This document shows positions 26,526 through 45,319 of a stretch of 64,000 bases of DNA, in pieces. Within the stretch, counting starts at the first letter, position 1. Every line of letters starts with the position of its first letter. Origin of the DNA: Sphingomicrobium astaxanthinifaciens (GTDB lineage: Bacteria; Pseudomonadota; Alphaproteobacteria; Sphingomonadales; Sphingomonadaceae); NCBI RefSeq assembly GCF_022865105.1, contig NZ_JAKNYM010000001.1:310001-374000 (forward strand), read 5' to 3'. A model generated the notes under the pieces. It was not told where the DNA came from. It searched no databases and worked only from the letters and a program-made list of their open reading frames with translations. The position numbers were made by a program, and so were the translations under genes.

Positions 26526-26626
26526 ACAGGGTTGCGCGCGCCTACGCGTGACCGGCACCGCTGGCTGGCTTGATGCTGCCCGACAGGTTTTTGCCCAGTG
26601 TAAATGGGCGCAATTCACATTCGACC

Positions 26627-26654
26627 TTGACGCCGAAATCCAGAAATCTATGAG
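26627..26654 (+). promoter_or_regulatory. tRNA-type promoter of the truncated tRNA-Gly, copy A
   Basis: TTGACG, 16 bases, then TATGAG, ending 14 bases before the tRNA 5' end. Expected transcription start is near 26661, as for a tRNA gene. Conserved in repeat copy B. Confidence 0.5.
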
Positions 26655-26668
26655 CGTCCCAACGCGAT

Positions 26669-26708
26669 GCGGGTGTAGCTCAATGGTAGAGCAGGAGCTT
26701 CCCAAGCT
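26669..26708 (+). pseudogene. Truncated tRNA-Gly(CCC), 5' half, copy A
   Basis: Identical to the first 40 bases of the intact tRNA-Gly at 45246: acceptor 5' strand, D arm and anticodon arm through the CCC anticodon and AAGCT. It then diverges into island sequence, so the T arm and acceptor 3' strand are missing. It is probably the original chromosomal 5' half, left behind by integration within the anticodon arm. Confidence 0.85.
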
Positions 26709-26996
26709 ACCCAAAATGGCGGTTTTCCGCCATCCCTGCTGTAAACTGCGCAAAAATCGATCGTTTAAGATCAACAGTTTACAGATGGCCTGTAAACCAA
26801 ATCGCGAAATCCCCTGCCCTCGCCCTAAGGACCATCAAGCGTCTGGTCAGCGCCCCATTTCGGTCCTCCGGCATGGCGTTCGTTGAGAAGCAAAATGCTG
26901 CCAGGCAGCATCTGGCCTGAGTTGATTTGAGGTCTGACTTTCGGACAGAGATGGGAACCGGTCTCCACCGTCAGCCCAAATCTTGAACAGCCCCCA

Positions 26997-27758
26997 TCAT
27001 CTACGCCACTCGTTGGTGATCAACATCGCCTCAGTTTCACGACCAAAAGCATCCCCGTTCATCACATCGCTCACATAGCTGCTCACCAAGCGATCATCGG
27101 ATGCCGAGGCGGTCTGGTAGCCAACATTTGAGCGAACCTTCTTCGTCCGAACGGCAAAATCAATGCGCCATGCGTTTTGTTCTCGACAGGCTACGGCACG
27201 CACGACGTCGTTCGGATTGGTGAATTCGAGCTCGCGGCACGGCTCTCCGCTCACGCTCGCGAAGCTAAGCACAGGTTGCACCTTTGAAGCGACGTCCTCG
27301 AGGTCCACTGTTGCACCACTAGGCGACGTTTCGAGCGCCGCGAACAAGGGTTCGCCAGGTACGATGCGAGCGGCAATCGCTGGAGTGCCATAAGGTGGAT
27401 CTCCCAATAATGCACCCTGATAGAGCGCACCGGTGGTCAGTCCCACCACGAGCGCAATCGACGCGGCCATTGCCGTTGGCCGAAAACGCCCGCCGTCCCC
27501 GCGATGACGCCGATGGCCTTCCAGATCATTGGCCGCATATCTGTCGCCGGCCATCAGTGCCATGACGGATTGAGGCAATCGACGGTCCGCGGCCTTGGAA
27601 GTTGCCTGCCGCATCGACCTATCCGCCTGCCTGAATTGGTTCAGCCGAGCCCGGAGAGCCGGATCATTGTCCAGCGCTGCCCGAACTTCATCGGTCTGCG
27701 ATGTGCCCAGTTCGCCGTCTAGAAAGGCGGAAAGCATTTCATCTGTGACTGTCATCAT
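26997..27758 (-). CDS. Anti-sigma factor, single membrane helix
   Basis: A 253-residue membrane-anchored anti-sigma factor that should hold the sigma factor encoded just upstream. The N-terminal cytoplasmic part (TDEMLSAFLDGELGTSQTDEVRAALDNDP) is the typical anti-sigma start. It lacks the His-x3-Cys-x2-Cys of zinc anti-sigma proteins, so redox sensing by that route is unlikely. One helix spans about 95-117 (TAMAASIALVVGLTTGALYQ) and a periplasmic domain of about 135 residues follows, with two Cys (CRELEF, ACREQN) that could pair. It overlaps the sigma gene by four bases. Signal and protease are unknown. Confidence 0.82.
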   Translation of the reverse strand: MMTVTDEMLSAFLDGELGTSQTDEVRAALDNDPALRARLNQFRQADRSMRQATSKAADRRLPQSVMALMAGDRYAANDLEGHRRHRGDGGRFRPTAMAASIALVVGLTTGALYQGALLGDPPYGTPAIAARIVPGEPLFAALETSPSGATVDLEDVASKVQPVLSFASVSGEPCRELEFTNPNDVVRAVACREQNAWRIDFAVRTKKVRSNVGYQTASASDDRLVSSYVSDVMNGDAFGRETEAMLITNEWRR

Positions 27759-28309
27759 TTTCCACCTCGATTGATCGGGACAACATTTGCGCTTTCACCT
27801 TGGTCGCAGGCATCGCCACCTAGCGAGCCGTAGGCCGCGAGTTGGTCTCTCGCGCGGGCAACACGGCTCATTACAGTTCCAATAGGGATGCCGATGAGTT
27901 CAGCGGCTTCCCGATATTTCATTCCTTCGACCGCGATGAGCATCAGTACCTCTCGATACTCTTGCGATAGCGAGGCGATTGCCCGTTCCACCTGCGACAA
28001 TTCGATGCGACGCTCGATCGATGCCTCACCATCAACGACTGCTGCATCAGGCACGTCATCGATATTTTGAGCCGTTCTCACATTCCGAAACCGCACTTCG
28101 TCTATCCATCTGTTGCGACAGATGCGGAACGCCCAGCGGCGAATGTCGTCGACGCCTGCCGCTCCACGCTGCAGCAATCGCTCGAGCGTGTCATGCAAGA
28201 GATCGTCCGCGTCATGTGCGTTGCCGGTGAGCGAGTAACAGTAGCGCCTGAGCGGCGTTAGCACCTCGACCAACTCGGCGCGAAATCCGGCGGAATTCTT
28301 ACGTTGCAT
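27755..28309 (-). CDS. ECF-type RNA polymerase sigma factor
   Basis: A 184-residue sigma-70-family factor with region 2 at about 13-78 (LRRYCYSLTGNAHDADDLLHDTLER, IRRWAFRICRNRWID) and region 4 at about 105-158 (IASLSQEYREVLMLIAVEGM, YREAAELIGIPIGTVMSRVARAR). There is no region 3, as expected for ECF factors. No ribosome binding site precedes the ATG at 28309. A promoter-like element ends only nine bases upstream, so the mRNA may be leaderless. It is co-transcribed with the anti-sigma gene and likely activates its own promoter and that of the acidic-repeat gene, which share one pattern. Confidence 0.88.
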   Translation of the reverse strand: MQRKNSAGFRAELVEVLTPLRRYCYSLTGNAHDADDLLHDTLERLLQRGAAGVDDIRRWAFRICRNRWIDEVRFRNVRTAQNIDDVPDAAVVDGEASIERRIELSQVERAIASLSQEYREVLMLIAVEGMKYREAAELIGIPIGTVMSRVARARDQLAAYGSLGGDACDQGESANVVPINRGGK

Positions 28310-28317
28310 GTCGAATG

Positions 28318-28343
28318 GACGTGTGAGGGAGCGGCTTTATTCC
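28318..28343 (-). promoter_or_regulatory. ECF-type promoter of the sigma/anti-sigma operon
   Basis: On the minus strand GGAATAA, 15 bases, CGTC. The same two elements with the same spacing occur before the acidic-repeat gene at 31717-31742. The element ends nine bases before the sigma ATG. Confidence 0.55.
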
Positions 28344-28375
28344 AGCTGACCAGCGCTGTTGCCCACACGCAAAAA

Positions 28376-29845
28376 TCATGGCTGGATCAGGCCGTGGCCA
28401 TAAACCTCGTCGCGTCCCCGTTCGCCCAGGTCAATTGCCTGACTTGCCAAGTCCCGGTAATGGCGATGCAGATTGTCGCAACGTCCCGAACGTGCACCGC
28501 ATCGCAACAAGAACGTTGCGGCCACAAAAGGGGAGGCAAAGGATGTTCCTGTTTGGAGGTCATAGCTTTGCGTGCCCGCCATCGCGGTTTGGACATTAAC
28601 GCCCGGAGCCGCGAAGGTGATGTGGCTTCCGCGCCCGGCCAGTCGATAGACGCGATTTTCTGGCCCGATGGCCGTAATCGCAATCACTCCGGGATAGGCT
28701 GCGGGGTAAGCGGGTCCTGCAGTCGGCCCTCCATTGCCTGCGGCTGCGACGATCACCACCCCTCGTGCCTGGGCTCGCTTAATCGCGGTGTGCAAAATAG
28801 CATTTGGGGGGCCTGAAAGACTCATGTTGATGACCGGCACCCGCGCTTCGATCATCCAGTCGATGGCGCGCACCAGATCTGCGGCGGTCGTCGTGACACC
28901 TGACTCCCGGTAAGAAACGAAAACGGAAGCGGAATAGAGTCTCGCGTCGGGAATCAGGCCTTCGAAATTCCGATCACGCCCCACCAGGATAGATGCAACA
29001 GCCGTTCCGTGCGCGCGTGGCCTGGCTGCATCGCCGCTGGTGAAGTTACGGGTTGCAATATTGCTCTCTTCAAAGGCGGGATGGGCCAAATCGATCTCGC
29101 TGTCGATCAGGCCGATCCGACGGTTCGCTACTTTTGAGGCATCGCGACGGCTCATGAAGGAGGCAGGTCGATAGACGGCGCTGTCCGCGACCTTTCCGCG
29201 CTGCCACGCGTCGGGGCGATAGACGTGATTGTCATCTACTCGGACACTTGAATTTTCGGGAATCAATTGCTCCAAATCGCGGTCGAAATCGGTGCCGGTC
29301 GTAGCAATCTTGACCAGCACCAGGCCGATGCCTTCCAGATCGTTCCTGTCAACCAGCTTAAAACCGCTATCCTGCAATCGTGCGACGTCTTTGGCTTCGA
29401 CCAGCAAGAGCTTTTCACCAAGCCGGATCTCATGGCCTTCATCGTCAATGCCGATTTCGAGCTCCGGAACGGAAACGCTCCCGAGCCGCTTCCCACGATC
29501 GTCGATATCGCTTTCGTCCTCGTCGGCCTCGCGGTCGCGACGTTCCTCTAGCTCATCGGCTCCTTCATCGAATTGCTCCTCGGCGTTCTCGGCTGCTTCC
29601 TCGGCGGCCTCCTGCGCCTCCTCTGCAGCGTCTTCCGCAGCCTGTTCAGCGGCCTCCTGAGCCTCCTCGACAGCTTCTTCCGCCGCCTCTTCGGCCGCTT
29701 CTTCAGCCGCCTCTTCTGCCGCCTCTTCCGCAGCTTCTTCAGCTTCTTCTGCGGCGTCCTCGTCAAAATCCTGCGCGCCGACGGGAGCCGTCAACACGGC
29801 CCCAAACAGCATGGCTGCGAAGAGGGGGAAGGGCGTTTTCATCAC
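28376..29845 (-). CDS. Secreted subtilisin-like (S8) protease with acidic Glu/Ala repeat
   Basis: An exported serine protease of 489 residues. A signal peptide (FPLFAAMLFGAVLTAPVGA) is followed at about 26-115 by a highly acidic, low-complexity stretch built from EEAAEEAAEEA units. A small domain at about 140-200 (KLLLVEAKDVARLQDSGFKL) resembles an inhibitory propeptide. The S8 catalytic domain has Asp248 (GLIDSEID), His279 (AHGTAVAS), oxyanion Asn371 (AAAGNGG) and Ser435 (GTSFASP), so it should be active. The repeat tract is encoded at about 29553-29757. It lies between the sigma gene and an outer-membrane protein gene. Target unknown. Confidence 0.88.
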   Translation of the reverse strand: MMKTPFPLFAAMLFGAVLTAPVGAQDFDEDAAEEAEEAAEEAAEEAAEEAAEEAAEEAVEEAQEAAEQAAEDAAEEAQEAAEEAAENAEEQFDEGADELEERRDREADEDESDIDDRGKRLGSVSVPELEIGIDDEGHEIRLGEKLLLVEAKDVARLQDSGFKLVDRNDLEGIGLVLVKIATTGTDFDRDLEQLIPENSSVRVDDNHVYRPDAWQRGKVADSAVYRPASFMSRRDASKVANRRIGLIDSEIDLAHPAFEESNIATRNFTSGDAARPRAHGTAVASILVGRDRNFEGLIPDARLYSASVFVSYRESGVTTTAADLVRAIDWMIEARVPVINMSLSGPPNAILHTAIKRAQARGVVIVAAAGNGGPTAGPAYPAAYPGVIAITAIGPENRVYRLAGRGSHITFAAPGVNVQTAMAGTQSYDLQTGTSFASPFVAATFLLRCGARSGRCDNLHRHYRDLASQAIDLGERGRDEVYGHGLIQP

Positions 29846-29966
29846 TTTGCTACTCGTTGGCCTGTCCAGCCCTTGGAGCCGGAACGCTGGAGACTTTCTA
29901 GGTTCTGGTGCGAGCCATCGTCAAATTGGATATGTCGCTTGGACCCAGCGACGGCTTGAAGCGAAA

Positions 29967-30009
29967 GGGGGCGGAGCATGGCGAAAGCATTCCTTTCCAA
30001 TCCGCCCCC
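29967..30009 (-). terminator. Hairpin terminator after the outer-membrane protein gene
   Basis: GGGGGCGGA pairs with TCCGCCCCC around a loop that itself forms a small GGAAAG/CTTTC stem. TTTC follows on the minus strand. It lies 27 bases after the stop of the barrel-like gene. The remaining intergenic DNA to 29846 shows no clear promoter for the protease gene. Confidence 0.6.
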
Positions 30010-30035
30010 AAGCATCGTCGCAATTGCCGTTGGCG

Positions 30036-30941
30036 TTAAAGCTCCAATACCATACCAGCGCTCAGGCGGTTTTCGGTGTAATCGGCCGAGGGCAGGTTCG
30101 AACTGCGATTGGTGTAGCGATAGCCAATTTCCGCGCTGAGGCCCGCGCCGACAGGCACCGAAAGTTCGACCTCGCCGCGAAAACGATCCTCCGTACGGAT
30201 TTCGCCGATTGACGGGGTGATCGCTTTGTAATCGCGATCCCGATAATCGATACCGAACTGCACGTGGGGTCCGTCACGACCGCCTGCGATCGGGAGTTTC
30301 AGGTCGGCTCCGACAACAAAGCCATCATAGTCGAACGCTGGATCGACCGCATCCTCTTCTTCCCACCGGCCGCTGACGGAGACGAACCCGGCATTGTTGT
30401 TGAAGAATTTGAACACGCTCGCGCCGAGCTGGTTTCCGGTCGCGTCGCGTCCGTCGAGGACCGAGAAGTCCTTGTCGTTATAGGTATAGAATGCACGCGC
30501 GAACACACCGTCAGCGACGAACCCCGAGATGCTCGGCGCAATCGACTGCATATCGAACAGCGCGTCACCGCCCAATCGATAGTGCGAAAAAGCATAGCGC
30601 GCGCCCAGGCGAGCGCCGGCGATGCGTGTCGAGGCATTCACATCAGCGACATGCGACTGAAGATTGAATTCGTCGAAGTCGAGGTAGATGGACTGACCGA
30701 AATCGTAGCCGAATTCGAGCTCGAATGCGTCGGTATCGACCGGTTGATATTCGAGGTCTGCGCCAAGCCGGAAAGCGACATCCCCGTCCGCCTGTTCAAG
30801 GTCGATTTCATCGACGACCAGCTGACTGTCATACACCGCGCCCGCTTCGAGTTTGAGCGAGAAATCGTCCTGTGCGAGGGCGCTGGCCGGGGCCAGTAGC
30901 GTCGCGCAAGCCAAGAACCGCGCAACTCCGGAAATTCTCAT
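30036..30941 (-). CDS. Predicted outer-membrane beta-barrel protein
   Basis: An exported protein of 301 residues with a signal peptide cut after SALA. The rest alternates polar and hydrophobic residues in strand-length pieces ending in aromatic residues (FELEFGYDFGQSIYLDF, ARLGARYAFSHYRLGGDALF, VQFGIDYRDRDYKA, LSAEIGYRYTNRSSN), which fits a barrel of about 12-14 strands. The last residues are MVLEL rather than the usual C-terminal Phe. I do not recognise a named family. AAGGAG sits seven bases before the ATG but directly after a terminator-like hairpin, which may limit expression. Confidence 0.7.
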   Translation of the reverse strand: MRISGVARFLACATLLAPASALAQDDFSLKLEAGAVYDSQLVVDEIDLEQADGDVAFRLGADLEYQPVDTDAFELEFGYDFGQSIYLDFDEFNLQSHVADVNASTRIAGARLGARYAFSHYRLGGDALFDMQSIAPSISGFVADGVFARAFYTYNDKDFSVLDGRDATGNQLGASVFKFFNNNAGFVSVSGRWEEEDAVDPAFDYDGFVVGADLKLPIAGGRDGPHVQFGIDYRDRDYKAITPSIGEIRTEDRFRGEVELSVPVGAGLSAEIGYRYTNRSSNLPSADYTENRLSAGMVLEL

Positions 30942-30960
30942 ACTATTACTCCTTAAAAGA

Positions 30961-30996
30961 GGAGAGCGCGCCAGATCCCGATGGTGCGCGCTCTCC
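30961..30996 (-). terminator. Intrinsic terminator between the acidic-repeat and barrel genes
   Basis: An 11-bp perfect stem (GGAGAGCGCGC with GCGCGCTCTCC) around a 14-base loop, followed on the minus strand by TCTTTT. It lies 21 bases after the acidic-repeat stop, and its T tract runs straight into the ribosome binding site of the barrel gene, so it could act as an attenuator. Confidence 0.7.
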
Positions 30997-31017
30997 GATA
31001 TTCCTTATCGGTTCGAC

Positions 31018-31656
31018 TTAGTCGTCGACCTCATCCTCGGCATCTTCCTCGGCTGCTTCTTCTGCAGCTTCTTCGGCGGCCTCGCGGGCTTCTTCTTCGG
31101 CTTCCTCGGCGGCCTCGCGCGCTTCTTCTTCGGCTTCCTCGGCGGCCTCGCGAGCTTCCTCCTCGGCCTCCTCGGCAGCCTCACGGGCTTCTCTCGCAGC
31201 GTCATCGGCATTATCCGCCAGATCCTCGAGGCGATCTTCTTCGATGTCGGCGAGGTCCTCCTGGAGATCCTTCTCCAAATCAGCCAGCTCTTCGGCGAGT
31301 TCGGCCTCTTCCTCGGCGAGCTCCTCGTCGAGTTCGGCCATTTTCTCGTCAAGGTCGGCCTGTGCGTTGGCAATATCGTCGGCGGTCGCGTCGGGGTCGT
31401 TCAGCACGGCATCGAACTCACGCTGGGCCTCCGCCCGCTCTGCTTCGATGTCGGCGACCTCATGATCGAATTCCGCGAGAGCGTTGGCTGCATCCGCCTC
31501 ATATTCGGCCTGCGCCTCGTCCGCTTCGGCGTCATGTTCGCTTTGGATCTCCACGGACTCATCGTCCGCGATTACCTGCGCGGCAAGCGGGGTGCTCATC
31601 CAGCCGGCCGCCGCAGCAAGCGCTATCAGGGAAGTGGTGTTCTTGATCGTCGTCAT
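31018..31656 (-). CDS. Secreted acidic coiled-coil protein with 11-residue repeats
   Basis: From the ATG at 31656 (AAGGAA upstream) this is a 212-residue protein with signal peptide TSLIALAAAAGWMSTPLAAQ. The mature part is extremely acidic and helical: a Glu/Ala/Asp-rich stretch, then ELDEELAEEEAELAEELADL, then four tandem EEAREAAEEAE units, and an acidic tail ending EDEVDD. The 11-residue period suggests a right-handed or straight coiled coil. It resembles the acidic tract of the nearby protease in composition. No known family. A promoter matching that of the sigma operon lies upstream, making it the likely main target of the island sigma factor. Confidence 0.75.
   Translation of the reverse strand: MTTIKNTTSLIALAAAAGWMSTPLAAQVIADDESVEIQSEHDAEADEAQAEYEADAANALAEFDHEVADIEAERAEAQREFDAVLNDPDATADDIANAQADLDEKMAELDEELAEEEAELAEELADLEKDLQEDLADIEEDRLEDLADNADDAAREAREAAEEAEEEAREAAEEAEEEAREAAEEAEEEAREAAEEAAEEAAEEDAEDEVDD
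31067..31190 (-). repeat. Tandem 33-bp coding repeats
   Basis: Near-identical 33-base units (phase marks at 31088, 31121, 31154 and 31187) encode the EEAREAAEEAE repeats of the acidic protein. They are in frame and contiguous, so copy number could vary by slippage without breaking the gene. Confidence 0.75.
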
Positions 31657-31716
31657 GTCTCGTTCCTTCAGGATTGAAGCCATCTCATGCGCCGTCATCT
31701 GCGCAGTCTCACCGAA

Positions 31717-31742
31717 GACGATCAGGGTCGCGGGTTTATTCC
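31717..31742 (-). promoter_or_regulatory. ECF-type promoter of the acidic-repeat gene
   Basis: On the minus strand GGAATAA, 15 bases, CGTC, the same pattern and spacing as at 28318-28343. It gives a leader of about 50 bases with a normal ribosome binding site. Confidence 0.55.
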
Positions 31743-31955
31743 CGCTAGCGTTCAAGATGTGTCGAGCGGATCTCGAAACGACCATCCATCCCAAAGATCT
31801 GGGTCGCCGAGCATGGCTCGGAGGCTCAGATTGCATGCCTACTGCCCCTCGCAGTTTACACGCTAAAAAGCATGGAATGGTGAGTAAGGCATTGTTTTTT
31901 CATGCAAAGGTACGGGATCGCCTTAAGCTCAAATGAGTGCGGTTTACATTCGACC

Positions 31956-31983
31956 TTGACGCCGAAACTAAGAAATCTATGAG
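31956..31983 (+). promoter_or_regulatory. tRNA-type promoter of the truncated tRNA-Gly, copy B
   Basis: TTGACG, 16 bases, TATGAG, as in copy A, placed correctly for a tRNA start at 31999. Confidence 0.5.
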
Positions 31984-31998
31984 CGTCTTCAACGCGAT

Positions 31999-32038
31999 GC
32001 GGGTGTAGCTCAATGGTAGAGCAGGAGCTTCCCAAGCT
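31999..32038 (+). pseudogene. Truncated tRNA-Gly(CCC), 5' half, copy B
   Basis: The same 40 bases as copy A and as the first 40 bases of the intact tRNA, again ending after AAGCT. Without a 3' half it cannot make a tRNA. It is best read as a recombination site between two tandem elements. Confidence 0.85.
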
Positions 32039-32332
32039 ACCCGAAATGGCAGTTTTCCGTAATCGCTGCTGTAAACTGCGCGAGAATCGCTCGTTTCAGA
32101 TCAATAGTTTACAGATGGCCTGTAAACTGGATTGAGCAGTCCTCTGCCCTCGCCTCCACCACCGTCAAGCGTCTGCTATGCGCCCCATTCCGGCCTTTCG
32201 AACGTCCGAGACATTTCGCCGTAGGCCGCCGGACCGGTTCGGATACAAAGCCTAGCGAACCACCTCGGTCCTATCCGCCTTCCCGTGCGCGGCCGTTTCT
32301 TTCCTGGCCATGCCGGCCAGAGGAGAAGTCAG

Positions 32333-32965
32333 ATGGGAATGTCAGAATTCGATCCGCGCGCGCGTTCGATTCGTCCTTGGAATGTAGGCACACAGGTTGG
32401 CTTAAAGCGACCGCTGACGCAGAAGCAAATATGGGCGATCCGTTTTCACCTCGATCGTAAGCAACGCTTTCGTGACAGGGCGCTGTTCGATCTCGCGATC
32501 GACAGCAAGCTACGAGGTTGCGATCTCGTCGAGCTGAAGATCGGCGACTTGGTTGCAGGCGCCGAGATCCGACACCGAGCCACGATCATTCAACGGAAAA
32601 CGAAGCGACCGGTGCAGTTCGAAATCGCTCAGGACGCTAGAGCGAGCCTCTTGGTCTGGCTCGAGCTTCGCGGAGGCAGCGTCGAGGACTTCGCCTTCCC
32701 CAGTCGGGTCGATCACGATCGGCATCTGAGTACGCGCCAGTACGCTAGGCTCGTCGATGAATGGGTCACCGCAGTCGGGCTGCGACGAAAGGATTATGGC
32801 ACCCATTCACTGCGACGCACGAAAGCGTCGATCATTTACAAAGCGACAGGCAATCTCCGAGCCATTCAAATCCTGCTCGGTCATTCCAAGATCGAGAACA
32901 CCGTGCGCTACCGCGGCGTCGACATCGAAGACGCCCTCACGTTGTCGGAGAAAATCGAGATCTAA
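32333..32965 (+). CDS. Short tyrosine recombinase (integrase)
   Basis: A site-specific recombinase of 210 residues from the ATG at 32333 (AGGAG seven bases upstream). It contains the catalytic set Arg61 (KLRGCDL), His158 and Arg161 (HSLRR), His184 (LGHSKIENT) and nucleophile Tyr193 (VRYRGVD). It lacks the N-terminal arm-binding domain and most of the core-binding domain of typical 350-420-residue integrases, but the catalytic domain is complete. It starts 138 bases inside island 2, next to repeat B, where an integrase is expected. Whether it drives movement of the island is unproven; a second integrase survives as a fragment at the other end. Confidence 0.88.
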   Translation: MGMSEFDPRARSIRPWNVGTQVGLKRPLTQKQIWAIRFHLDRKQRFRDRALFDLAIDSKLRGCDLVELKIGDLVAGAEIRHRATIIQRKTKRPVQFEIAQDARASLLVWLELRGGSVEDFAFPSRVDHDRHLSTRQYARLVDEWVTAVGLRRKDYGTHSLRRTKASIIYKATGNLRAIQILLGHSKIENTVRYRGVDIEDALTLSEKIEI

Positions 32966-32970
32966 GGACC

Positions 32971-32997
32971 GCGCCAGTCTCCTTAGGAGGCTGGCGC
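32971..32997 (+). terminator. Hairpin after the integrase gene
   Basis: GCGCCAGTCTCC pairs with GGAGGCTGGCGC (one wobble) around a three-base loop, six bases after the integrase stop. No T tract follows. Confidence 0.5.
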
Positions 32998-33121
32998 ACC
33001 AACCAAGCGGCCGCTTTCATTTGATCTTGAGCGCTTCAGCAGCGACCGATTAGGGGTGGGAAGCGGACATTGATCAGCCTACTTGTCCGCCCCCTCCTGC
33101 AATCTTCTGGTGGTTTGGCGG

Positions 33122-33469
33122 TCAACCCGTCGTCTTGAGTGCCGCCATGTCCTCGAACAAACCCTCCGGAGTAGTCTCTTCGCCCCTGGCGTTGACCTGT
33201 TCGAACAGGTCATGAAACCCCGCCGCTTCGACGTCTCGTTCCAGGGTCTCAGCAGCACGACGGTCTGGCATTTTCCAAACAGCGAGATAGCGGTAATCGA
33301 CTGAATGCGGGACATCTTTATCAAGCAGCGCGAAGTGAAGAGGCTCTATTCCCAAACTTACCAAGTTACCGATGCTCTCTTGAACTCGCGACAAATAGTT
33401 CTTTCTGTCAGAGTGCTCCATATCTAGCCATTTCTGCTTGGCTTTCCATAGTTCGACATAAATATACAT
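33122..33469 (-). CDS. Small conserved-type protein (DUF6616-like)
   Basis: A 115-residue soluble protein from the ATG at 33469; an in-frame ATG eleven codons earlier is possible. It begins MYIYVELWKAKQKWLDME and has a ferredoxin-like alpha/beta pattern with YLAVWKMPDRRAAETLERDV near the middle, similar in my judgement to DUF6616 proteins (related to dimeric alpha/beta-barrel folds). Function unknown. It is convergent with the integrase and lies alone, 277 bases from the MgtC-like gene. Those 277 bases hold no clear gene. Confidence 0.6.
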   Translation of the reverse strand: MYIYVELWKAKQKWLDMEHSDRKNYLSRVQESIGNLVSLGIEPLHFALLDKDVPHSVDYRYLAVWKMPDRRAAETLERDVEAAGFHDLFEQVNARGEETTPEGLFEDMAALKTTG

Positions 33470-33746
33470 CGTTTCCCAGTCTCCCCATTTTAGATCGAGC
33501 ATTAGCTCAGTCCCGACTACCCAATTTATTGGTCATAGGCTGTAGGTCAACAGGAGCCATCCCGTTCGTAATCTTGGCTTCGAAGCATCGATGCCCATTC
33601 CGCGATGGGGTCGATCGCAGCCGTGTCGCTTTCGGGATGCTTGAACCCGTCCTCACGGTGCGGCATCGTCCGCCCGCTCGAGGTAGCGCAATTCATTGGC
33701 TGAGCTCAGGCCCTCGCGACTGCGCTTGATCGCGGTAATTCGACCG

Positions 33747-34244
33747 TCAGGAATGCATATCGGCATTATCGGTCTCATCGGCGTCGCTCGTGTGAGCGTC
33801 CCACTGAGACGTGAAAGGGCCGCTTGCAACCAGCGTGATGAGCACAATGGCGGCCATCAGGATTGCGAGCCAAAGTTCCCCCATGCCGCAGGCCAGCCCG
33901 ATCGCTCCGGCGCTCCAGATTGCCGCCGCCGAACCAGCGCCCTGGACGAACCCGCCCTGTCGGAACATTGCACCCGCTCCCAGAAACCCGATCCCGGTGA
34001 TGACGCCCTCGACTACGCGGGTCGGGTCGATGCGCGTTTGCGGATCGGACGTGGCAGCCAGCATTTCGATCGACGCGATAAGAAGCCCGCACGAGCCTAC
34101 CGAGATGATGATGAAAGGGCGGAAATCGATCGGCTTCTTTCTGAAGAAGCGTTCCAGCCCGATCAGGAACGGTAAGACCGTAGCGGCTCCAAGGCGCAGA
34201 AATGACTCGCTCCAGCTTAATGCACTCGGGGAAAAAGCCTCCAT
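33747..34244 (-). CDS. MgtC/SapB-family membrane protein
   Basis: An inner-membrane protein of 165 residues with four hydrophobic helices: LRLGAATVLPFLIGLERFFR, FIIISVGSCGLLIASIEML, VVEGVITGIGFLGAGAMFRQ and AIWSAGAIGLACGMGELWLA. The ITGIGFLGAGAM and TAAAIW-type motifs are hallmarks of MgtC/SapB. Family members relate to growth at low Mg2+ or acid stress. The longer open frame upstream lacks family similarity, so I start at the ATG at 34244, though no good ribosome binding site is visible. It diverges from the SDR gene. The polar C-terminal tail SQWDAHTSDADETDNADMHS is unusual. Confidence 0.82.
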   Translation of the reverse strand: MEAFSPSALSWSESFLRLGAATVLPFLIGLERFFRKKPIDFRPFIIISVGSCGLLIASIEMLAATSDPQTRIDPTRVVEGVITGIGFLGAGAMFRQGGFVQGAGSAAAIWSAGAIGLACGMGELWLAILMAAIVLITLVASGPFTSQWDAHTSDADETDNADMHS

Positions 34245-34295
34245 GGCCGAGTAATGAATGTGCGGCTTCGATGGTTGCAGGCGCCGTGCGCTGTT

Positions 34296-34320
34296 GAAAC
34301 CTTGAAGGCGGTGTACCGTT
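34296..34320 (+). promoter_or_regulatory. Possible EcfG-type stress promoter of the SDR gene
   Basis: GAAAC, 16 bases, CGTT, close to the alphaproteobacterial general-stress consensus GGAAC-N16/17-CGTT. It ends 39 bases before the SDR ATG, leaving room for a leader with AAAGGA. Confidence 0.3.
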
Positions 34321-34359
34321 GAGGCGCTTGGGGGCGTGTCTGCGCTTGAAAGGAAACTC

Positions 34360-35229
34360 ATGGCGACTGACCAGACTTTCCAATCCCGAATAGATGAAGA
34401 ACCCGATCTGCCGGGTGCCGAAGCCGAACTCGACGAACAGCCCAACTGGCAACCGCGTTATCGCGGGTCGAAGCGGCTCGAGGGCAAGGTCGCCATCGTC
34501 ACGGGTGGCGACAGCGGGATCGGCCGTGCCGTGGCCGCGCTCTTTGCTCGCGAGGGCGCGGATATCGCCATCGTGTATCTGGCTGACGAAGAAACCGAAG
34601 ATGCGCGCACGACCCAAGAAGCCATTAAGGCCGAAGGGCAGGAAGCTATCCTGCTGCAAGGCGCCCTGGGATGCGAGATGTTTGCGCGTGAAGTGGTCGA
34701 ACGCACGGTCAGGCAATTCGGGCGGCTCGATGTGCTGGTGAACAATGCGGGAGAGCAGCATCCCGACGACGAAATCAGAGCAATTACCGACGAACAACTT
34801 CGCCGTACCTTCCAAACCAATGTCTTCTCGATGTTCTATTTGGTTCAGGCTGCGCGCCCCCATCTCGAACGCGGCAGCGCGATCATCAACTGCACGAGCG
34901 TTACGATGTACAAGGGATCGGACAATCTCCTCGACTATTCCGCGACGAAGGGGGCCATCACGGCCTTTACCCGTTCGCTGTCCGAAGCTCTGGTTGGCGA
35001 CGGCATTCGGGTCAACGCCGTGGCTCCCGGACCGATCTGGACGCCGCTCAATCCTTGTGGAGGCCAACCTCCCGAGGAGATGGATGATTTCGGCAAGGAT
35101 ACGCCGATGGGTCGGCCGGGCCAGCCAAACGAGGTCGCCCCAGCCTTCCTGTTTCTTGCGTGCGAGGATTCGAGTTACATGTCAGGTCAGGTCCTGCACC
35201 CAAATGGCGGTATCGTCGTCGGGAGTTGA
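34360..35229 (+). CDS. SDR-family oxidoreductase (YghA-like)
   Basis: An NAD(P)-dependent short-chain dehydrogenase of 289 residues from the ATG at 34360, which has AAAGGA upstream. The N-terminal extension (SRIDEEPDLPGAEAELDEQP) is typical of the YghA/GsiD-like stress group. Motifs are the dinucleotide-binding VTGGDSGIGRAV, NNAG in VLVNNAGEQHPDD, a catalytic Ser in CTSVTMYKG and the YSATK motif. Substrate unknown; relatives are general-stress proteins. It is followed after 35 bases by a DUF3008-type gene, and the two are probably one transcript. Confidence 0.9.
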   Translation: MATDQTFQSRIDEEPDLPGAEAELDEQPNWQPRYRGSKRLEGKVAIVTGGDSGIGRAVAALFAREGADIAIVYLADEETEDARTTQEAIKAEGQEAILLQGALGCEMFAREVVERTVRQFGRLDVLVNNAGEQHPDDEIRAITDEQLRRTFQTNVFSMFYLVQAARPHLERGSAIINCTSVTMYKGSDNLLDYSATKGAITAFTRSLSEALVGDGIRVNAVAPGPIWTPLNPCGGQPPEEMDDFGKDTPMGRPGQPNEVAPAFLFLACEDSSYMSGQVLHPNGGIVVGS

Positions 35230-35264
35230 AGCCCTGCCGCTATAACAAACGAAGGAGGAGCCCA

Positions 35265-35453
35265 ATGCCTGCCAAGTCGAAGGCCCAGCAGAAAGCAGCC
35301 GGGGCCGCTCTGTCCGCGAAGCGCGGGGAGACAAAGGTCAGTGACCTCGAGGGGGCGTCGCGCGAGATGTACGATTCGATGGCAGAGCGCGAACTGGAGG
35401 AATTTGCGAGCACCCCCCGGAAAGGCAAACCGGAGCACAAATCGTCGACCTGA
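35265..35453 (+). CDS. DUF3008-type small basic protein
   Basis: A 62-residue soluble protein with a strong ribosome binding site (AAGGAGG). It begins MPAKSKAQQKAAGAALSAKR and ends with FASTPRKGKPEHK, the pattern of the DUF3008 family, a group of small proteins often found with stress genes in alphaproteobacteria. Function unknown. It follows the SDR gene on the same strand. The next 290 bases (35454-35744) hold no gene I can support, only an AGCGGACGTT word near 35583 that recurs elsewhere in the window. Confidence 0.8.
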   Translation: MPAKSKAQQKAAGAALSAKRGETKVSDLEGASREMYDSMAERELEEFASTPRKGKPEHKSST

Positions 35454-35744
35454 GCGGTCCTTACCGCTCGGAGCGCCGGAATCGTCTCCTGCTCGCCGCA
35501 GTGCGGAAAAGGTTGTCCGCCTAGGCGCTCTCAACCCTCTCAATGTCACCAATGCTTCGGCGAACGACCGCTATGGGGTCGTTAGCGGACGTTGAGGCCT
35601 GGCTCTTGCTCAAAGGCTGCTGTGATCGAGGGCGAAACCAAGAGCGGACCGCCTGCTACCGGCCCAGCAAACGACATTGGCTTTATGTGCCAAGCATCCG
35701 CTATCTATCAAATCACCACGAGACTGTTCTTCTGGATGCGCCAA

Positions 35745-35939
35745 TCACGTCCGCGGTGACTTATCTGTCACAATCCGACCACTGTCGTCCAAACCTACAC
35801 CGACGCCCAGCTCTCGCCGCCGAGCGAAATAAACACTTTCCTTTGCAGATGGCTTTTTAAGGGTATTGGCAATCTCTTGCGCTGACGGAGTGGAATTATG
35901 CGCATTTCGTCCCTGCCCAGATGAATTGCTCTCTTCCAT
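35745..35939 (-). CDS. Small hypothetical protein
   Basis: A possible 64-residue soluble protein from the ATG at 35939, with GGAGG eight bases upstream. The sequence MEESNSSGQGRNAHNSTPSA is polar and disordered; the C-terminal part SVYFARRRELGVGVGLDDSG is more structured. I recognise no family. Support comes from the good ribosome binding site only. Nothing is recognisable in 35940-36100. Confidence 0.45.
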   Translation of the reverse strand: MEESNSSGQGRNAHNSTPSAQEIANTLKKPSAKESVYFARRRELGVGVGLDDSGRIVTDKSPRT

Positions 35940-36100
35940 CGTTGCTTCCTCCATAACGCTTAACCCATCTCTCAATAGCACAGATTTGGTTCATGATCGC
36001 GAGCACGGAGTTCGACAGAGATTCCGTTTAGGGCTCAGCGCCGGGCGTTATCGGACAGTCGGCTGTCGGCCCAAAAACGCGGGTCTTGGCGAGGCTATAG

Positions 36101-36373
36101 TCAAACAGGCGTGATGGTTACGAGACAGTGGTCGCCGGTTTCCAATCGTGCCTTTTGGCATTGTGAGCTGGGAATATTGAAAAAGAAAACGTCAGAGCCT
36201 TTTCCCCAAGGTCGAATATTCCCCTTGAATTGGGGAGTACCGTTTAAGCTGATTAACGCCTCGAACGCTTGTTTTGCCCCAAGCAGGTCCTCAGGCTTGA
36301 TCACAATGTAACGGGGAAGATCGGTACGCTTCCGCAGTATCCGCGCCGAAAATTCAATCCTTGGCTTCTCCAT
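36101..36373 (-). CDS. Small DUF1905-like beta-barrel protein
   Basis: A 90-residue protein from the ATG at 36373. The sequence EKPRIEFSARILRKRTDLPR followed by FKGNIRPWGKGSDVFFFNIP and LETGDHCLVTITPV has the layout of DUF1905 proteins, small barrels whose central motif is GxxRPWGRG. Function of the family is not established. The longer open frame upstream has no family similarity. An AGGGA lies too close to this ATG, so the start is uncertain. Confidence 0.55.
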   Translation of the reverse strand: MEKPRIEFSARILRKRTDLPRYIVIKPEDLLGAKQAFEALISLNGTPQFKGNIRPWGKGSDVFFFNIPSSQCQKARLETGDHCLVTITPV

Positions 36374-36487
36374 ATCCCTGACCCCATTCATCACGGCGTT
36401 CTGGCGTCCATCTGCACGACGCCCCCCCATCCAACCAGCCTGTCCGCAATTGGAGTAGTAAGCGGACGTGAGTTCAACGTCCCCCAA

Positions 36488-36715
36488 TCAACTACCGCAG
36501 CAACCGCCGGAGTTTCCGGCAGCGCGAGCTTCTTGGATAGGCGGACAAGGCACATTTGCGTGGGAGCAGAACACGCAACAATCGCCTTTCTTAGGGCGTA
36601 GGATCTCACCGCAATGCCGGCAGTCGTAGAAAAACTGGCAGGCATCTGTCGGCATTGTTTCTGTCGAGACACCGCCACAAGTTGGGCAGGTGATAGTTGA
36701 GCGAAGTTCGGTCAT
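36488..36715 (-). CDS. Small Cys-rich protein with paired CxxC sites
   Basis: A 75-residue protein from the ATG at 36715. It has four putative metal-binding pairs: CPTC near the start, CRHC in the middle, GDCCVFC (Cys-Cys plus Cys) and a terminal GGCCGS. The first two form a zinc-ribbon-like layout (TCPTCGG and YDCRHCG). The GDCCVFCSHANVPCPP block is, to my knowledge, characteristic of a small protein that accompanies MerT-like transporters. Its start overlaps the stop of the MerT-like gene by four bases, so the two act together. A role in handling a thiophilic metal such as mercury is an inference. Confidence 0.72.
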   Translation of the reverse strand: MTELRSTITCPTCGGVSTETMPTDACQFFYDCRHCGEILRPKKGDCCVFCSHANVPCPPIQEARAAGNSGGCCGS

Positions 36716-37116
36716 TGTTGGAGCAACCAAGACCGGATCGGCCCTTCGAAAAGGCTTTTCCACGCTAGGGATAGCAGCACGAATGCGGTTGCCGCGCTAA
36801 GGAGTGCGAACGTGCGTCGACTTGGTTTCGTAGCAAAGCAATCGCCCTCGATGCTGCATCGCCGCTGCCTAGCGAAATAACTCGCCCACCCCACGACGAC
36901 CGCTAGACCAGCAATGATAGTCAACGGCCAATGGTAGGGCACGACCAAGGCCAATCCGCCCGCACTCATTCCGGCAAGCGCGAGCGCGACGGGAAGGACG
37001 CAGCAGGCCGCAGCGGAGAAAACAGCTCCAACGCTTGCTGCAAAGCCGACCGCCATGACGGATTGCTCGCGCTTGGTTGAAGAGTTGGGCGGATTTGAAG
37101 TCTCACTAATCATCAT
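36712..37116 (-). CDS. MerT-like membrane transport protein
   Basis: An inner-membrane protein of about 134 residues with three helices. The first carries the vicinal Cys pair in FSAAACCVLPVALALAGMSA, which in MerT takes Hg2+ from the periplasm and passes it inward. A second pair-like site is in the loop (RRCSIEGDC). There is no mercuric reductase or merR in the window, so mercury detoxification is not complete here. I use the ATG at 37116; a GTG two codons earlier is possible. It is coupled to the small Cys-rich gene downstream. Confidence 0.7.
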   Translation of the reverse strand: MMISETSNPPNSSTKREQSVMAVGFAASVGAVFSAAACCVLPVALALAGMSAGGLALVVPYHWPLTIIAGLAVVVGWASYFARQRRCSIEGDCFATKPSRRTFALLSAATAFVLLSLAWKSLFEGPIRSWLLQQ

Positions 37117-37482
37117 CGCCACATGCGTTATGGAATGAATGGGGTCAACGAAACGCCCGCAACGGGTTGGTGGCCGTCGTTGGCGGCACGGGCGTGCCGA
37201 GTGTCTGTTTGCCCAGTTCTCGGCGCTGGAAGCGGGCAGTCAGCTATCGGCCCAAGTTCGGTCAGAAAGACTTGCACCCAACCAAGCTTGGAGGAGCCAG
37301 CGCAGAACGATCAGCGATGAGCTTGAGCGCGACTAGCTCCGCGACGCGCAAGACGTCTTCGGCCGGTTCGATCATCTCGGTCTTGGGCGCAGCGCTCATC
37401 AGGGGAGCTTTTTGGACCGCTGGATAGTTAACGAGGAAGAATCGCTCCGGGGACGGATCGCGCTTCACACTGGAGTCATCAG
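37117..37482. other. Intergenic region, nothing recognised
   Basis: 366 bases between the MerT-like gene (leftward) and the GT4 gene (rightward). It should contain both promoters, but I see no convincing -35/-10, ECF or sigma-54 pattern. A 45-codon minus-strand frame at 37262-37399 lacks a ribosome binding site. Confidence 0.4.
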
Positions 37483-38547
37483 ATGCGCATCGCTCTCGTC
37501 GCCCCCCTCGCCGAGTCCATCCCGCCGCGGCTTTACGGTGGCACCGAACGCGTCGTCGCATGGCTCGCAGACGCGCTTGTAGATCGAGGTTTAGACGTCA
37601 CCCTTTTCGCCAGCGGGGATAGTTGCACGAAGGCAGAACTCCATCCGTGCGCGGAGGAAGGTCTTCGCCTAAAGAATATCGATGATCACTTACCGCACAT
37701 GTTTTGCATGTTCGATAAAGTCCGCGAACGGGTGGACGAATTCGATATCCTCCATTTCCACACCGATTTTTTCCACTTCCCTGTATTCCAGCCCTACGTC
37801 GAACGCTGTTTCACGACTCTTCACGGGCGCCTGGATCTTCCCGACACATTTTGCGCCTACGAGCATTTCGACAGGATGCGGCTGGTAAGTATCTCAGATG
37901 ACCAACGCCGGCCGATGCCGAATGCCAATTTCTCGCGAACGATCTATCACGGCATGCCTGCCGATTTGCTGCCCTACTCGCCTCAATCCGGGGACTACCT
38001 TGCCTTTCTCGGTCGAATATCGCCGGAAAAACGCCCAGATCGCGCAATCGAGATTGCGAAGAGGGCCGGCCGTAAACTCAGGATTGCCGCCAAGGTAGAC
38101 AATGCCGATCGCGACTATTTCGAGCGCGAAATCAAACCGATGCTGGACCACCCTCTTATAGAATTCATCGGCGAGATCGACGATCGCGAAAAAGCCGAAT
38201 TTCTGGGCGGCGCGATCGCCTTGTTGTTCCCCATCGATTGGCCTGAGCCCTTCGGACTTGTCATGATCGAGGCCATGGCGACTGGTACACCGGTTATCGG
38301 CTGGCGCAACGGTTCGACGCCAGAGGTCATCCGGGATGGAAGAAGCGGACTTCTGGTGAAGACTATCGAAGAAGCGGTCGAGGCGGTGGAAAAATGCGCC
38401 TCGCTATCTCGTTCGAAGGTGAGGGAAAGTTTTGACCAAAGATTCACTGCGGATATCATGGCCGCAAATTACGCGGACCTGTTTCGAGGAGCATTAGTGG
38501 AGACGACGAGTCCTTCGGTTGAAGGGCAATCACTATTATTCCGGTAA
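37483..38547 (+). CDS. GT4-family glycosyltransferase
   Basis: A cytoplasmic GT-B fold glycosyltransferase of 354 residues with GGAG eight bases upstream of the ATG. Features are IPPRLYGGTERVVAWLADAL near the N-terminus (the glycine-rich loop), YLAFLGRISPEKRPDRAIEI, ALLFPIDWPEPFGLVMIEAM (Glu-x7-Glu) and GTPVIGWRNGSTPEVI. It abuts the debranching-like enzyme gene with no gap (TAA then ATG), so the pair is an operon. Together they suggest synthesis and trimming of an alpha-glucan or similar glycan, possibly under stress; this is inferred from pairing only. Confidence 0.87.
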   Translation: MRIALVAPLAESIPPRLYGGTERVVAWLADALVDRGLDVTLFASGDSCTKAELHPCAEEGLRLKNIDDHLPHMFCMFDKVRERVDEFDILHFHTDFFHFPVFQPYVERCFTTLHGRLDLPDTFCAYEHFDRMRLVSISDDQRRPMPNANFSRTIYHGMPADLLPYSPQSGDYLAFLGRISPEKRPDRAIEIAKRAGRKLRIAAKVDNADRDYFEREIKPMLDHPLIEFIGEIDDREKAEFLGGAIALLFPIDWPEPFGLVMIEAMATGTPVIGWRNGSTPEVIRDGRSGLLVKTIEEAVEAVEKCASLSRSKVRESFDQRFTADIMAANYADLFRGALVETTSPSVEGQSLLFR

Positions 38548-40728
38548 ATGGAGCGCACGAACATTGCGATGAACGACGCAGATTTCGAACAGCTGGATTA
38601 CCACGTCGAGGCCACGGCATCCCTCGTCGATCAACCTCTGCGGACCCTCAAGTCCGGCGATGTTTTCGCGATCTTCGATCAACAGGGTAATTTTCACGGG
38701 GGCGCGGACGGGCTGTTCTTTCTCGATACCAGATTCCTGTCGCGCTATCAGCTCAGAATAGCCGGTAGCGAACCGCTTCATCTGGGCGCTGTGGTGAGCG
38801 ACGATGATATCGTAATGGTGGTGGATCTCACCAATGCCGACGTCGGCAGCGGGAGTTCGCGGCATCCTTGGCTCCACAGCGATACGCTTCACATATCGCG
38901 AATGAAACTCATACGAGATCAAGTCGCTTACGAGCGTTTGCACATACGCAGCTATAATCCGATAGGCCGACCTGTCCCGGTTGAAGTGCGTTTCGATGCG
39001 GATTTCGCCGACCTATTCGAGGTGCGAGGTGCAAGGCGCGATCGCCGCGGCAAACGTCGAGTTCGTGTGGAAAAGAACGCGGTGCGTATGCAATATCGCG
39101 GGTTGGACGCGATCCTGCGCGAAACCGTTTTGACCTTCTCACCACCCCCGGACCGGCTCGATAAGAACGCCGTCCAATGGGACCTCGACTTCGACGAGGC
39201 GAACGAGATTGTCCTCGAAATCGCAATCGGCTGTCGCCTCGGCGATCAGGAAGCTACCGAGCGGTCTTTTGACGAAGCGCTAGCGTTGTGCCGCGGCGAG
39301 CAGCAGGAGTTTGAGCGATATTGGCCATCGATCGAAGGCGACGATACCGATTTCAATCGTTTGACGAAGCGCAGTGCGTCGGATCTGCGCATGCTTGCCA
39401 GCGAAACGGAACATGGTTGGTATCCCTATGCAGGCATACCTTGGTACAGCACGGTCTTTGGTCGAGACGGCATCATTACGGCCATGCAGTCGCTCTGGCT
39501 TGCCCCCGAATTCGCCCGTGGCGTCTTAATAACACTGGCCGCAACCCAGGCGTCCGAAATCGATGCGAGCGCCGATTCCGAGCCCGGCAAAATCCTTCAT
39601 GAAACACGATCCGGGGAAATGGCGCGCCTCGGCGAAGTGCCATTCCGCCGATATTACGGCACGGTCGATGCTACCCCGCTCTACGTGTGGCTCGCCGCTC
39701 TTTATTACGAGAGAACCGGCGACCTTCGCACGATTGAAGTCATCTGGCCCAACATCTTATCTGCCATCGATTGGATGGAAGAATTTGGTGACGTCGACGG
39801 CGATGGGTTTATCGAATATTCCCGCGCCAAGGATAGCGGCCTGTCCAATCAAGGCTGGAAAGACAGCGGAGACGCTATCTTCCACGACGATGGACGATTG
39901 GCGATTGGCCCCATCGCGCTTTGCGAAGTCCAAGGATATGCATTTGCCGCGTTCAAAGGAGCAGCGGCTCTCGCCGAAGTGTTTGGGGACACGGATCGCA
40001 GCACAACGCTACGCAAGCGGGCGGCAGACCTCCGTGAAACATTTGAAGAGGCATTCTGGCTGGACGGTCTGGGTACCTACGCTCTCGCGCTCGATGGTCA
40101 GAAGAGACCATGCACCGTCGTATCCTCAAATGCCGGCCAATGTCTCGCTACGGGCATTGTTTCGAGGGATCGCGCCGATCGGGTCGCTGCGACCCTCTTC
40201 GACGAAAACTCTTTCACAGGTTGGGGAATACGCACGATCCGGTGTGAAGAAGCCCGATACAATCCCATGAGCTATCATAACGGCTCGATATGGCCTCATG
40301 ATAATAGTCTGATCGCGTGGGGTTTGTCCCGCTATGGCCATCAGGACAAGGCCGCACGACTTCTCACCAGCATGGTGGACGTCGCCAGATATGACGAAAA
40401 CCGGCGCCTGCCCGAGCTATTCTGTGGCTTTAGCCGCGAACCCGGCCGCGGACCAACCTCCTATCCCGTGGCTTGTTCGCCGCAGGCTTGGGCCGCCGCG
40501 GCACCGTTCGCGATGCTGAAAGCAAGTCTCGGGTTGAATATCGACTGCCTCACCAATCGCATAACCCTTCAGAGACCAACACTTCCGGATTTCCTAACAG
40601 AATTGCACATAAACAGGATTACTGTTGGAGAAAGTCTGGTTTCGCTACGAATCCGGCGAAGCGCTGAGAGCGTGACATGTTCGGCCAGCCGGCACCGCGG
40701 CGAGACTGAAGTAGTCATTTTTCATTAA
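38548..40728 (+). CDS. Amylo-alpha-1,6-glucosidase (glycogen-debranching-like enzyme)
   Basis: A glycoside hydrolase of 726 residues. The N-terminal domain (about 25-225, LKSGDVFAIFDQQGNFHGG and LFFLDTRFLSRYQLRI) matches the bis-type debranching N-domain. The C-terminal (alpha/alpha)6 barrel (about 270-700) has WYPYAGIPWYSTVFGRDGII, IDWMEEFGDVDGDGFIEY, GLSNQGWKDSGDAI and SYHNGSIWPHDNSLIAWGL, typical GDE_C catalytic-cleft motifs. It probably removes alpha-1,6 branches from a glucan in the cytoplasm. Start may be Met8. It forms a two-gene unit with the GT4 gene. Confidence 0.87.
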   Translation: MERTNIAMNDADFEQLDYHVEATASLVDQPLRTLKSGDVFAIFDQQGNFHGGADGLFFLDTRFLSRYQLRIAGSEPLHLGAVVSDDDIVMVVDLTNADVGSGSSRHPWLHSDTLHISRMKLIRDQVAYERLHIRSYNPIGRPVPVEVRFDADFADLFEVRGARRDRRGKRRVRVEKNAVRMQYRGLDAILRETVLTFSPPPDRLDKNAVQWDLDFDEANEIVLEIAIGCRLGDQEATERSFDEALALCRGEQQEFERYWPSIEGDDTDFNRLTKRSASDLRMLASETEHGWYPYAGIPWYSTVFGRDGIITAMQSLWLAPEFARGVLITLAATQASEIDASADSEPGKILHETRSGEMARLGEVPFRRYYGTVDATPLYVWLAALYYERTGDLRTIEVIWPNILSAIDWMEEFGDVDGDGFIEYSRAKDSGLSNQGWKDSGDAIFHDDGRLAIGPIALCEVQGYAFAAFKGAAALAEVFGDTDRSTTLRKRAADLRETFEEAFWLDGLGTYALALDGQKRPCTVVSSNAGQCLATGIVSRDRADRVAATLFDENSFTGWGIRTIRCEEARYNPMSYHNGSIWPHDNSLIAWGLSRYGHQDKAARLLTSMVDVARYDENRRLPELFCGFSREPGRGPTSYPVACSPQAWAAAAPFAMLKASLGLNIDCLTNRITLQRPTLPDFLTELHINRITVGESLVSLRIRRSAESVTCSASRHRGETEVVIFH

Positions 40729-40827
40729 GTTTCCCGAACGGCCCATCAGGTCTTGGCTCAGCGTTTTTTCTGCGCTTCGTTTTTTCGTTTCGTGGACGGA
40801 TCGATGATATCGATATAAGGCGGGGCT

Positions 40828-42345: not shown

Positions 42346-42541
42346 TCGTCACACGTCTGCCGCCCGGGTAGCCCGAGTGAGATGCGCCAGGAGGCCCGGC
42401 CGGGCGTTCAGGACCCACCTCCAATCCGCCCACGAGGATCGGCTTGCGACGCGTTAGCGCCTTCTCTCCCTTGACCGATCGACTACGCGAGTAAATTGTC
42501 GAAGACAGTCTTGTCGTCGTACCTGCCGTCGGAGATGGATC

Positions 42542-42982
42542 ATGTATGAGCGCGCCATAGTTGCCGTCGATGTCTATGACGAAGCCGGAACGACGCAAAC
42601 CCTACGCAAGGCGAAACACCTCGCCGAGGCGTTTGGCACCGCACTTCACATCGTCTTCGTGAGACCGAAACTGCCAGCACGATACATGATGCTCGTGCCT
42701 GACGACTTCCAAGCGATCCGACAGGATGAAGCACTCCAAAAGCTCATCGAAGCGGGTGAAGTGGCTGAACTGAATATCACCGACTCCGATTTCACCTCCC
42801 CCCAAGGCTCGGTTTCGGATGAAATCCTCAATGCCGTGGAAGAATTGAAGGGTGATCTCATCATCCTCGGTGCTCAGCAATCGAATTTTGCCCGATTGTT
42901 TATCGGGTCGAACAGCAACTCGATCATGCGCCATTCGACCGTTGACGTGTTGCTGGTTCGTTTCACCGCTTCGAACGACTAG
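42542..42982 (+). CDS. Universal stress protein (UspA family)
   Basis: A 146-residue soluble protein. It starts MYERAIVAVDVYDEAG and ends with the ATP-binding-type block LIILGAQQSNFARLFIGSNS followed by STVDVLLVR, which gives the G-x2-G-x9-GS layout only in part, as Gln and Asn replace the first residues. It may therefore not bind ATP in the usual way. GGAG precedes the ATG. It lies seven bases before the antiporter gene, and UspA proteins are known to pair with Kef-type transporters. Confidence 0.85.
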   Translation: MYERAIVAVDVYDEAGTTQTLRKAKHLAEAFGTALHIVFVRPKLPARYMMLVPDDFQAIRQDEALQKLIEAGEVAELNITDSDFTSPQGSVSDEILNAVEELKGDLIILGAQQSNFARLFIGSNSNSIMRHSTVDVLLVRFTASND

Positions 42983-42989
42983 ACCGAAC

Positions 42990-44702: not shown

Positions 44703-44709
44703 GCCGCCT

Positions 44710-45245: not shown

Positions 45246-45319
45246 GCGGGTGTAGCTCAATGGTAGAGCAGGAGCTTCCCAAGCTTAAGACGAGGGTTCG
45301 ATTCCCTTCACCCGCTCCA
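45246..45319 (+). tRNA. tRNA-Gly(CCC), intact
   Basis: 74 bases folding as a complete cloverleaf: acceptor GCGGGTG with CACCCGC, D arm GCTC/GAGC, anticodon loop TTCCCAA (anticodon CCC), T loop TTCGATT, discriminator T and encoded CCA. In the anticodon stem, pair 28-42 is G-T and 27-43 is G-A, so it is slightly weak. Bases 1-40 match the two truncated copies at 26669 and 31999. The upstream DNA here is island-derived and lacks the TTGACG/TATGAG promoter seen before those copies. Confidence 0.95.

Follow-up and report, generated by a model that had tools for sequence, protein, structure and literature searches.

Five genes on the minus strand of a 64,000-nt stretch of the Sphingomicrobium astaxanthinifaciens genome (hereafter, the window) very likely form one module under its own sigma factor, to judge from their sequences. 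All five are co-directional and encode, in order, an acidic protein, an outer-membrane barrel, a subtilase, an ECF sigma factor and an anti-sigma factor (Table 1). The sigma, anti-sigma and S8 protease core has the sequence features of an ECF26-like system. What looks new is an extension built on this known switch, comprising the acidic protein, the barrel and a matching of repeats between the acidic protein and the protease. As a whole, the locus is best explained as a self-contained, sigma-switched envelope module in which a polyanionic layer is combined with a matched protease, an explanation that we favor by a modest degree.

The five genes and their setting

The five genes lie in a low-GC island (GC ≈0.58, against ≈0.69 outside), which extends from about 26.6 to 45.1 kb according to the composition of the window. 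The 5′ half of a tRNA-Gly gene (41 nt) is present in three identical copies, at 26668–26708, 31998–32038 and 45245–45285. The last of these belongs to a tRNA-Gly(CCC) gene, the sole complete tRNA of the window, whose first 40 nt recur exactly in both half copies flanking the five-gene set. These two copies are embedded in longer direct repeats (211 nt at 85% identity and 57 nt at 86%). The original prediction placed the genes between two tRNA-Gly half repeats, and all of the ORFs and repeats were present. The five genes are found between the first two half copies with no recombinase of their own, so the stretch looks like a passenger element next to a larger tRNA-Gly island; the tyrosine recombinase of the neighboring element could plausibly have mobilized it.

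The closest relatives of the locus, L063 and L064, had neither a tRNA nor a sharp drop in GC in the 16–17 kb read. The description of the set as island-borne thus holds in the window, but being on an island is not in the nature of the system. Resolvase-like and integrase-like ORFs are located a few kb away from the homologous five-gene locus in L064 (14274–16981). The neighboring tRNA-Gly island of the window (32285–45003) carries stress-type cargo: MgtC, a short-chain dehydrogenase, a glycosyltransferase, a glycogen debranching enzyme, an HWE histidine kinase, Usp and an Na/H exchanger with TrkA_N. Within it, on the minus strand at 36488–37122, a MerT-like membrane protein is followed by a small Cys-rich protein in which a GDCCVFC motif was recognized by eye.

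Table 1. Features of the five-gene locus, its flanks and related genes (window positions unless a locus is named).
Feature	Position	Strand	Basis
Direct repeat (~270 nt), left copy, with tRNA-Gly 5′ half	26602..26870	.	Repeat families D3, D5, D6
Membrane anti-sigma factor, 253 aa	26997..27758	-	Pfam/NCBIfam, homologue alignment
ECF sigma factor, 184 aa, ECF26-like	27755..28309	-	Pfam/NCBIfam; context and promoter as in PMC6180224
Predicted ECF promoter GGAATAAA-N14-CGTC, upstream of sigma gene	28318..28343	-	Motif search
S8 subtilase, predicted exported, with acidic region	28376..29842 (first ATG)	-	Pfam/NCBIfam, composition
Outer-membrane beta-barrel, 301 aa, about 14 strands	30036..30941	-	Alignment, structure model, Foldseek
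GC-rich hairpin between acidic and barrel genes	30961..30996	-	Sequence comparison; terminator scan did not flag
Secreted (predicted) acidic helical repeat protein, 211 aa	31018..31653	-	ORF, composition
Predicted ECF promoter GGAATAAA-N14-CGTC, upstream of acidic gene	31717..31742	-	Motif search
Direct repeat, right copy, with tRNA-Gly 5′ half	31931..32200	.	Repeat search
Tyrosine recombinase of neighboring element, outside five-gene set	32285..32965	+	Pfam/NCBIfam
Intact tRNA-Gly(CCC), right boundary of island	45246..45319	+	tRNA and repeat search
(SSSN)n protein genes beside RpoE6	L099 3702-4067; L102 1560-2042; L103 1501-2055	-	ORF reading

The sigma factor contains Sigma70 r2 and r4_2 domains (Pfam/NCBIfam). 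The anti-sigma gene lies downstream of the sigma gene and overlaps it, and its product matches RseA_N/zf-HC2-like domains at scores slightly below the cut-offs. It consists of a helical N-terminal anti-sigma domain, one predicted transmembrane helix and a periplasmic beta domain with a Cys pair that is invariant in 12 homologues. A structure search with this sensor domain gave no confident structural relative.

Export of the module products was called by eye from signal-like N-termini. In the subtilase (Peptidase_S8, E = 1.9e-32), the catalytic residues D246, H278 and S432 are in place, and the signal-like sequence is followed by a 95-residue acidic region, an A/E-rich repeat with a net charge of −42. 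The protein appears to include a propeptide-like region. It scored far below the cut-offs of the S8 equivalogs mycosin (TIGR03921; 111.7 versus 278.75 bits) and QhpE (NF049966; 84.1 versus 165 bits). Both resemble it in the S8 catalytic domain, but have no such N-terminal acidic repeat region.

The acidic protein carries a net charge of −74 across 185 mature residues. It shows an α-helical periodicity of ≈3.65 and had no credible match in Pfam/NCBIfam. A longer ORF (31018–31836) was rejected as the gene: it contains the promoter at 31742–31717, and a signal-like sequence follows position 31653, making the latter the likelier start. Between genera, the protein is 75% identical, with dN ≈0.15 and silent sites near saturation, pointing to purifying selection, and it is the best conserved of the five. 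The GGxGxDxUx nonapeptide repeats of RTX calcium-binding proteins are absent from the window acidic protein. By eye, RTX-like GGxGxD repeats, which are of the calcium-binding type, were seen only in acidic proteins of L079 (13371–15464), L082 (2110–3507) and L084 (12738–14267), where the gene lies beside the anti-sigma gene with a sigma-type motif upstream.

The barrel gave weak BBP2_2/DUF481 matches, is strongly acidic (pI 4.2) and was modeled with a pLDDT of 90.9. In Foldseek, the model resembled the monomeric 14-strand barrels OmpG and CymA (E about 1e-9 to 1e-10, TM 0.5–0.6), a likeness of overall fold at 10–13% identity. OmpG and CymA have always been studied without acidic-protein or protease partners of this kind. 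A search of plasmids for the barrel yielded no match.

Promoters and recurrence of the locus

The predicted promoter GGAATAAA-N14-CGTC occurs upstream of both the sigma gene, where it begins 34 nt ahead of the start, and the acidic gene, with 0.01 chance occurrences expected in the window. The slightly looser pattern GGAATAA-N14-16-CGTC has exactly two matches in the 2.24 Mb genome, both of them at the promoters of the five-gene locus. In genome G407, both matches likewise fall within the homologous locus, as do two of three in G365. Among the five-gene loci, GGAAT-N15-17-CGT was found upstream of the sigma gene in 15 of 17, the subtilase gene in 13 of 17 and the acidic gene in 10 of 14, compared with 3.4% of random windows, and upstream of neither the barrel nor the anti-sigma gene (0/17 each). 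A chance promoter was ruled out by the whole-genome count and this background rate. A scan of the module for sigma-70 promoters found none.

The subtilase gene adjoins the sigma gene, divergently in most homologous loci and co-directionally in the window, L063 and L064. In these three, where it follows the barrel gene, the subtilase has no motif of its own, as would be predicted for a gene transcribed from the promoter of the acidic gene. These patterns support the original claim of an own sigma switch well at the level of sequence, and the sigma factor very probably drives its own expression and that of the acidic-barrel operon from one type of promoter that is specific to the locus. The genus-core sigma/subtilase loci, in which the subtilases lack acidic regions, use another promoter: in L021 and other loci of the genus, a palindromic, overlapping divergent promoter, GGATGAAACG...CGTTTCATCC, lies between the subtilase and sigma genes. 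The hairpin in the gap between the acidic and barrel genes is present in several loci and may be an attenuator that sets their stoichiometry.

A pattern scan derived from the barrel alignment, covering genomes of 84,980 species, returned 22 loci; barrel loci were also found in 32 of 398 genomes of the order and, within the class, in 8 of 385, where several matches were weak or incomplete. A locus was counted as carrying all five genes when sigma, anti-sigma and subtilase genes were present and the barrel gene was immediately preceded by an acidic gene; 17 of the 52 non-duplicate barrel loci qualified. The automatic count of 20 also took in L079, L082 and L084, which were excluded because the acidic stretch ahead of their barrel genes belongs to the subtilase. 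The five-gene loci are from Alpha- and Gammaproteobacteria, and include Marinicaulis, other Alphaproteobacteria and one MAG labeled Gammaproteobacteria (L050). The five families are thus found together elsewhere, as the original prediction required, and their recurrence in distantly related bacteria suggests a real envelope system.

Partial versions also exist. Some Halieaceae and Hyphomonadaceae loci have the barrel, protease, sigma and anti-sigma genes with no acidic gene detected. An acidic-barrel pair with no sigma, protease or motif nearby was found in L065, L066, L068 and L069 (own genome, C2:338000–354000), and the same genome has a separate sigma/anti-sigma/subtilase locus, L021, without the pair. 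A sigma-linked protease without acidic protein or barrel is found in the genus-core loci and on rhizobial plasmids. The two halves of the module can therefore apparently work apart.

Where acidic protein and acidic subtilase region occur together, their repeats match locus by locus: as a rule, an A/E repeat in the subtilase goes with an A/E acidic protein, and a D/V/I repeat with D/V/I. Across 15 loci, which are phylogenetically non-independent, so that shared ancestry remains in the statistic, the Spearman correlation between the two was 0.77 for A versus V/I/L and 0.85 for D versus E. These values were 0.75 and 0.84 after control for GC and the composition of the barrel and catalytic domain; a by-product of genome composition therefore does not explain the correlation. 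The A versus V/I/L match fails in L041 and L023, and L067 was left out of the scoring because its subtilase has no acidic region.

Relation to ECF26 systems

The sigma factor RpoE6 of S. meliloti belongs to group ECF26, and its gene is divergent from that of the serine protease SMa0142; this layout is reported to be conserved across much of the group (PMC6180224). RpoE6 was shown experimentally to induce its own operon and SMa0142; the group promoter consensus is −35 GGAATA/−10 (C)GT, and no function has been assigned to RpoE6-type systems (PMC6180224). The window likewise has an ECF sigma factor with GGAATA/CGT at its own operon, a downstream membrane anti-sigma factor with a predicted transmembrane helix and a periplasmic C-terminal domain, and an adjacent S8 protease under a predicted sigma promoter, co-directional rather than divergent. 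Both proteases have an acidic stretch after a signal-like sequence, but the S. meliloti protease has about 7 Asp where the window subtilase has 95 residues. The best plasmid matches of the window sigma factor include Sinorhizobium sigma genes beside an S8 protease.

The S. meliloti locus lacks a barrel and an acidic repeat gene, and has a secreted (SSSN)n protein instead. This protein is encoded next to RpoE6 in both S. meliloti and S. medicae by a gene with a conserved GGAATA-type promoter; it is possibly SMa0146, which has been reported as an RpoE6 target. On the opposite strand, RefSeq has an acidic hypothetical protein, which was considered as a homologue of the acidic protein and rejected, since the (SSSN)n ORF, having a signal-like N-terminus and a sigma-type motif that persists in S. 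medicae, is more likely to be the gene. On an Aminobacter plasmid (L101 7283–9595), an ECF26-type S8 protease adjoins genes for DUF4956, a polyphosphate polymerase-domain protein and a phytase-like esterase.

The statement that no such system had been described stands for the five-gene whole, but not for the ECF/anti-sigma/S8 core, which corresponds to RpoE6-EcfR6-SMa0142 of ECF26 (PMC6180224). A literature search for an acidic-repeat subtilase system found nothing, and no description of the barrel, the acidic protein, the long acidic region or the repeat matching was found in the literature searched, with a mention in the 2021 ECF reclassification being possible. We suggest, tentatively, that RpoE6-type ECF26 systems share a conserved and so far overlooked output, in which an S8 protease is accompanied by a secreted protein of low-complexity repeats (acidic here, SSSN in Sinorhizobium); in the acidic version, the protease repeat would be tuned to that protein and a dedicated barrel would be added.

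Proposed mechanism and alternatives

The module probably protects the cell from cationic or envelope stress by forming a polyanionic layer in the envelope, combined with a matched protease. By analogy with its family, the membrane anti-sigma factor would hold the ECF26-like sigma factor until a periplasmic signal releases it. Free sigma would then transcribe from two promoters, which are well supported by sequence, the sigma/anti-sigma operon and the acidic-barrel-(subtilase) operon. The acidic protein would be exported, and the hairpin between the two genes would cause more of it to be made than of the barrel. Acidic protein, acidic barrel and the acidic region of the subtilase may act at one site, presumably the outer membrane, where the matched repeats would let the acidic protein and the protease co-assemble, probably by cation bridging between helical polyanions. 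Most speculatively, the layer could capture cationic attackers or divalent cations, and the co-localized subtilase degrade captured protein or trim the layer. Capture and degradation of polycations as the role of the module is doubtful, albeit a serious candidate.

Some of the same evidence could be read differently. The acidic protein might be the substrate, inhibitor or chaperone of the subtilase itself, with an acidic pro-region that mimics it and a protease that matures or turns over an acidic fiber. A locus-by-locus repeat match is what would be expected of a pro-region competing with a free ligand or substrate, but a common cation ligand would yield the same match and acidic-barrel pairs without a protease exist, and we consider this reading rather unlikely. 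We give slightly less weight still to a subtilase placed in the signaling path, as a site-1 protease of the anti-sigma periplasmic domain, with sigma-dependent expression as positive feedback and the acidic region as a regulatory pro-region. The protease does remain with the sigma factor where acidic protein and barrel are absent, in the genus-core loci and on rhizobial plasmids, and in most loci it is predicted to be transcribed by the sigma factor. However, its fold is S8, not HtrA; RseA is cut at site 1 by DegS, a protease of a family other than S8, and no S8 enzyme is known to us in such a role. This reading would also leave the repeat match between subtilase and acidic protein unexplained.

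Equally improbable, in our view, is a Ca2+, Mg2+ or metal buffer or matrix, whose acidic protein and barrel would retain divalent cations at the outer membrane, leaving quality control as the only task of the protease. The extreme negative charge of the acidic protein and the sigma-linked, RTX-like acidic proteins of three loci would fit such a role, but the window acidic protein has no conserved metal-specific residues, and none of the loci read is accompanied by a metal transporter. That the genes came together by accident, on an island that also carries unrelated stress genes, is scarcely credible, being contradicted by co-occurrence at 17 loci in two classes, the shared promoter and purifying selection.

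The matching of repeats appears to be a rare case in which low-complexity sequence carries pairing information, and, contrary to what is usually expected of such sequence, no other product of the module is as well conserved between genera as the acidic protein. The locus adds two more conserved, exported products to an ECF26-type sigma factor and protease, and supplies promoters open to direct testing. If the tentative reading of the RpoE6-type output is correct, the module would be an envelope device that pairs a protease and a polymer through matched low-complexity repeats.
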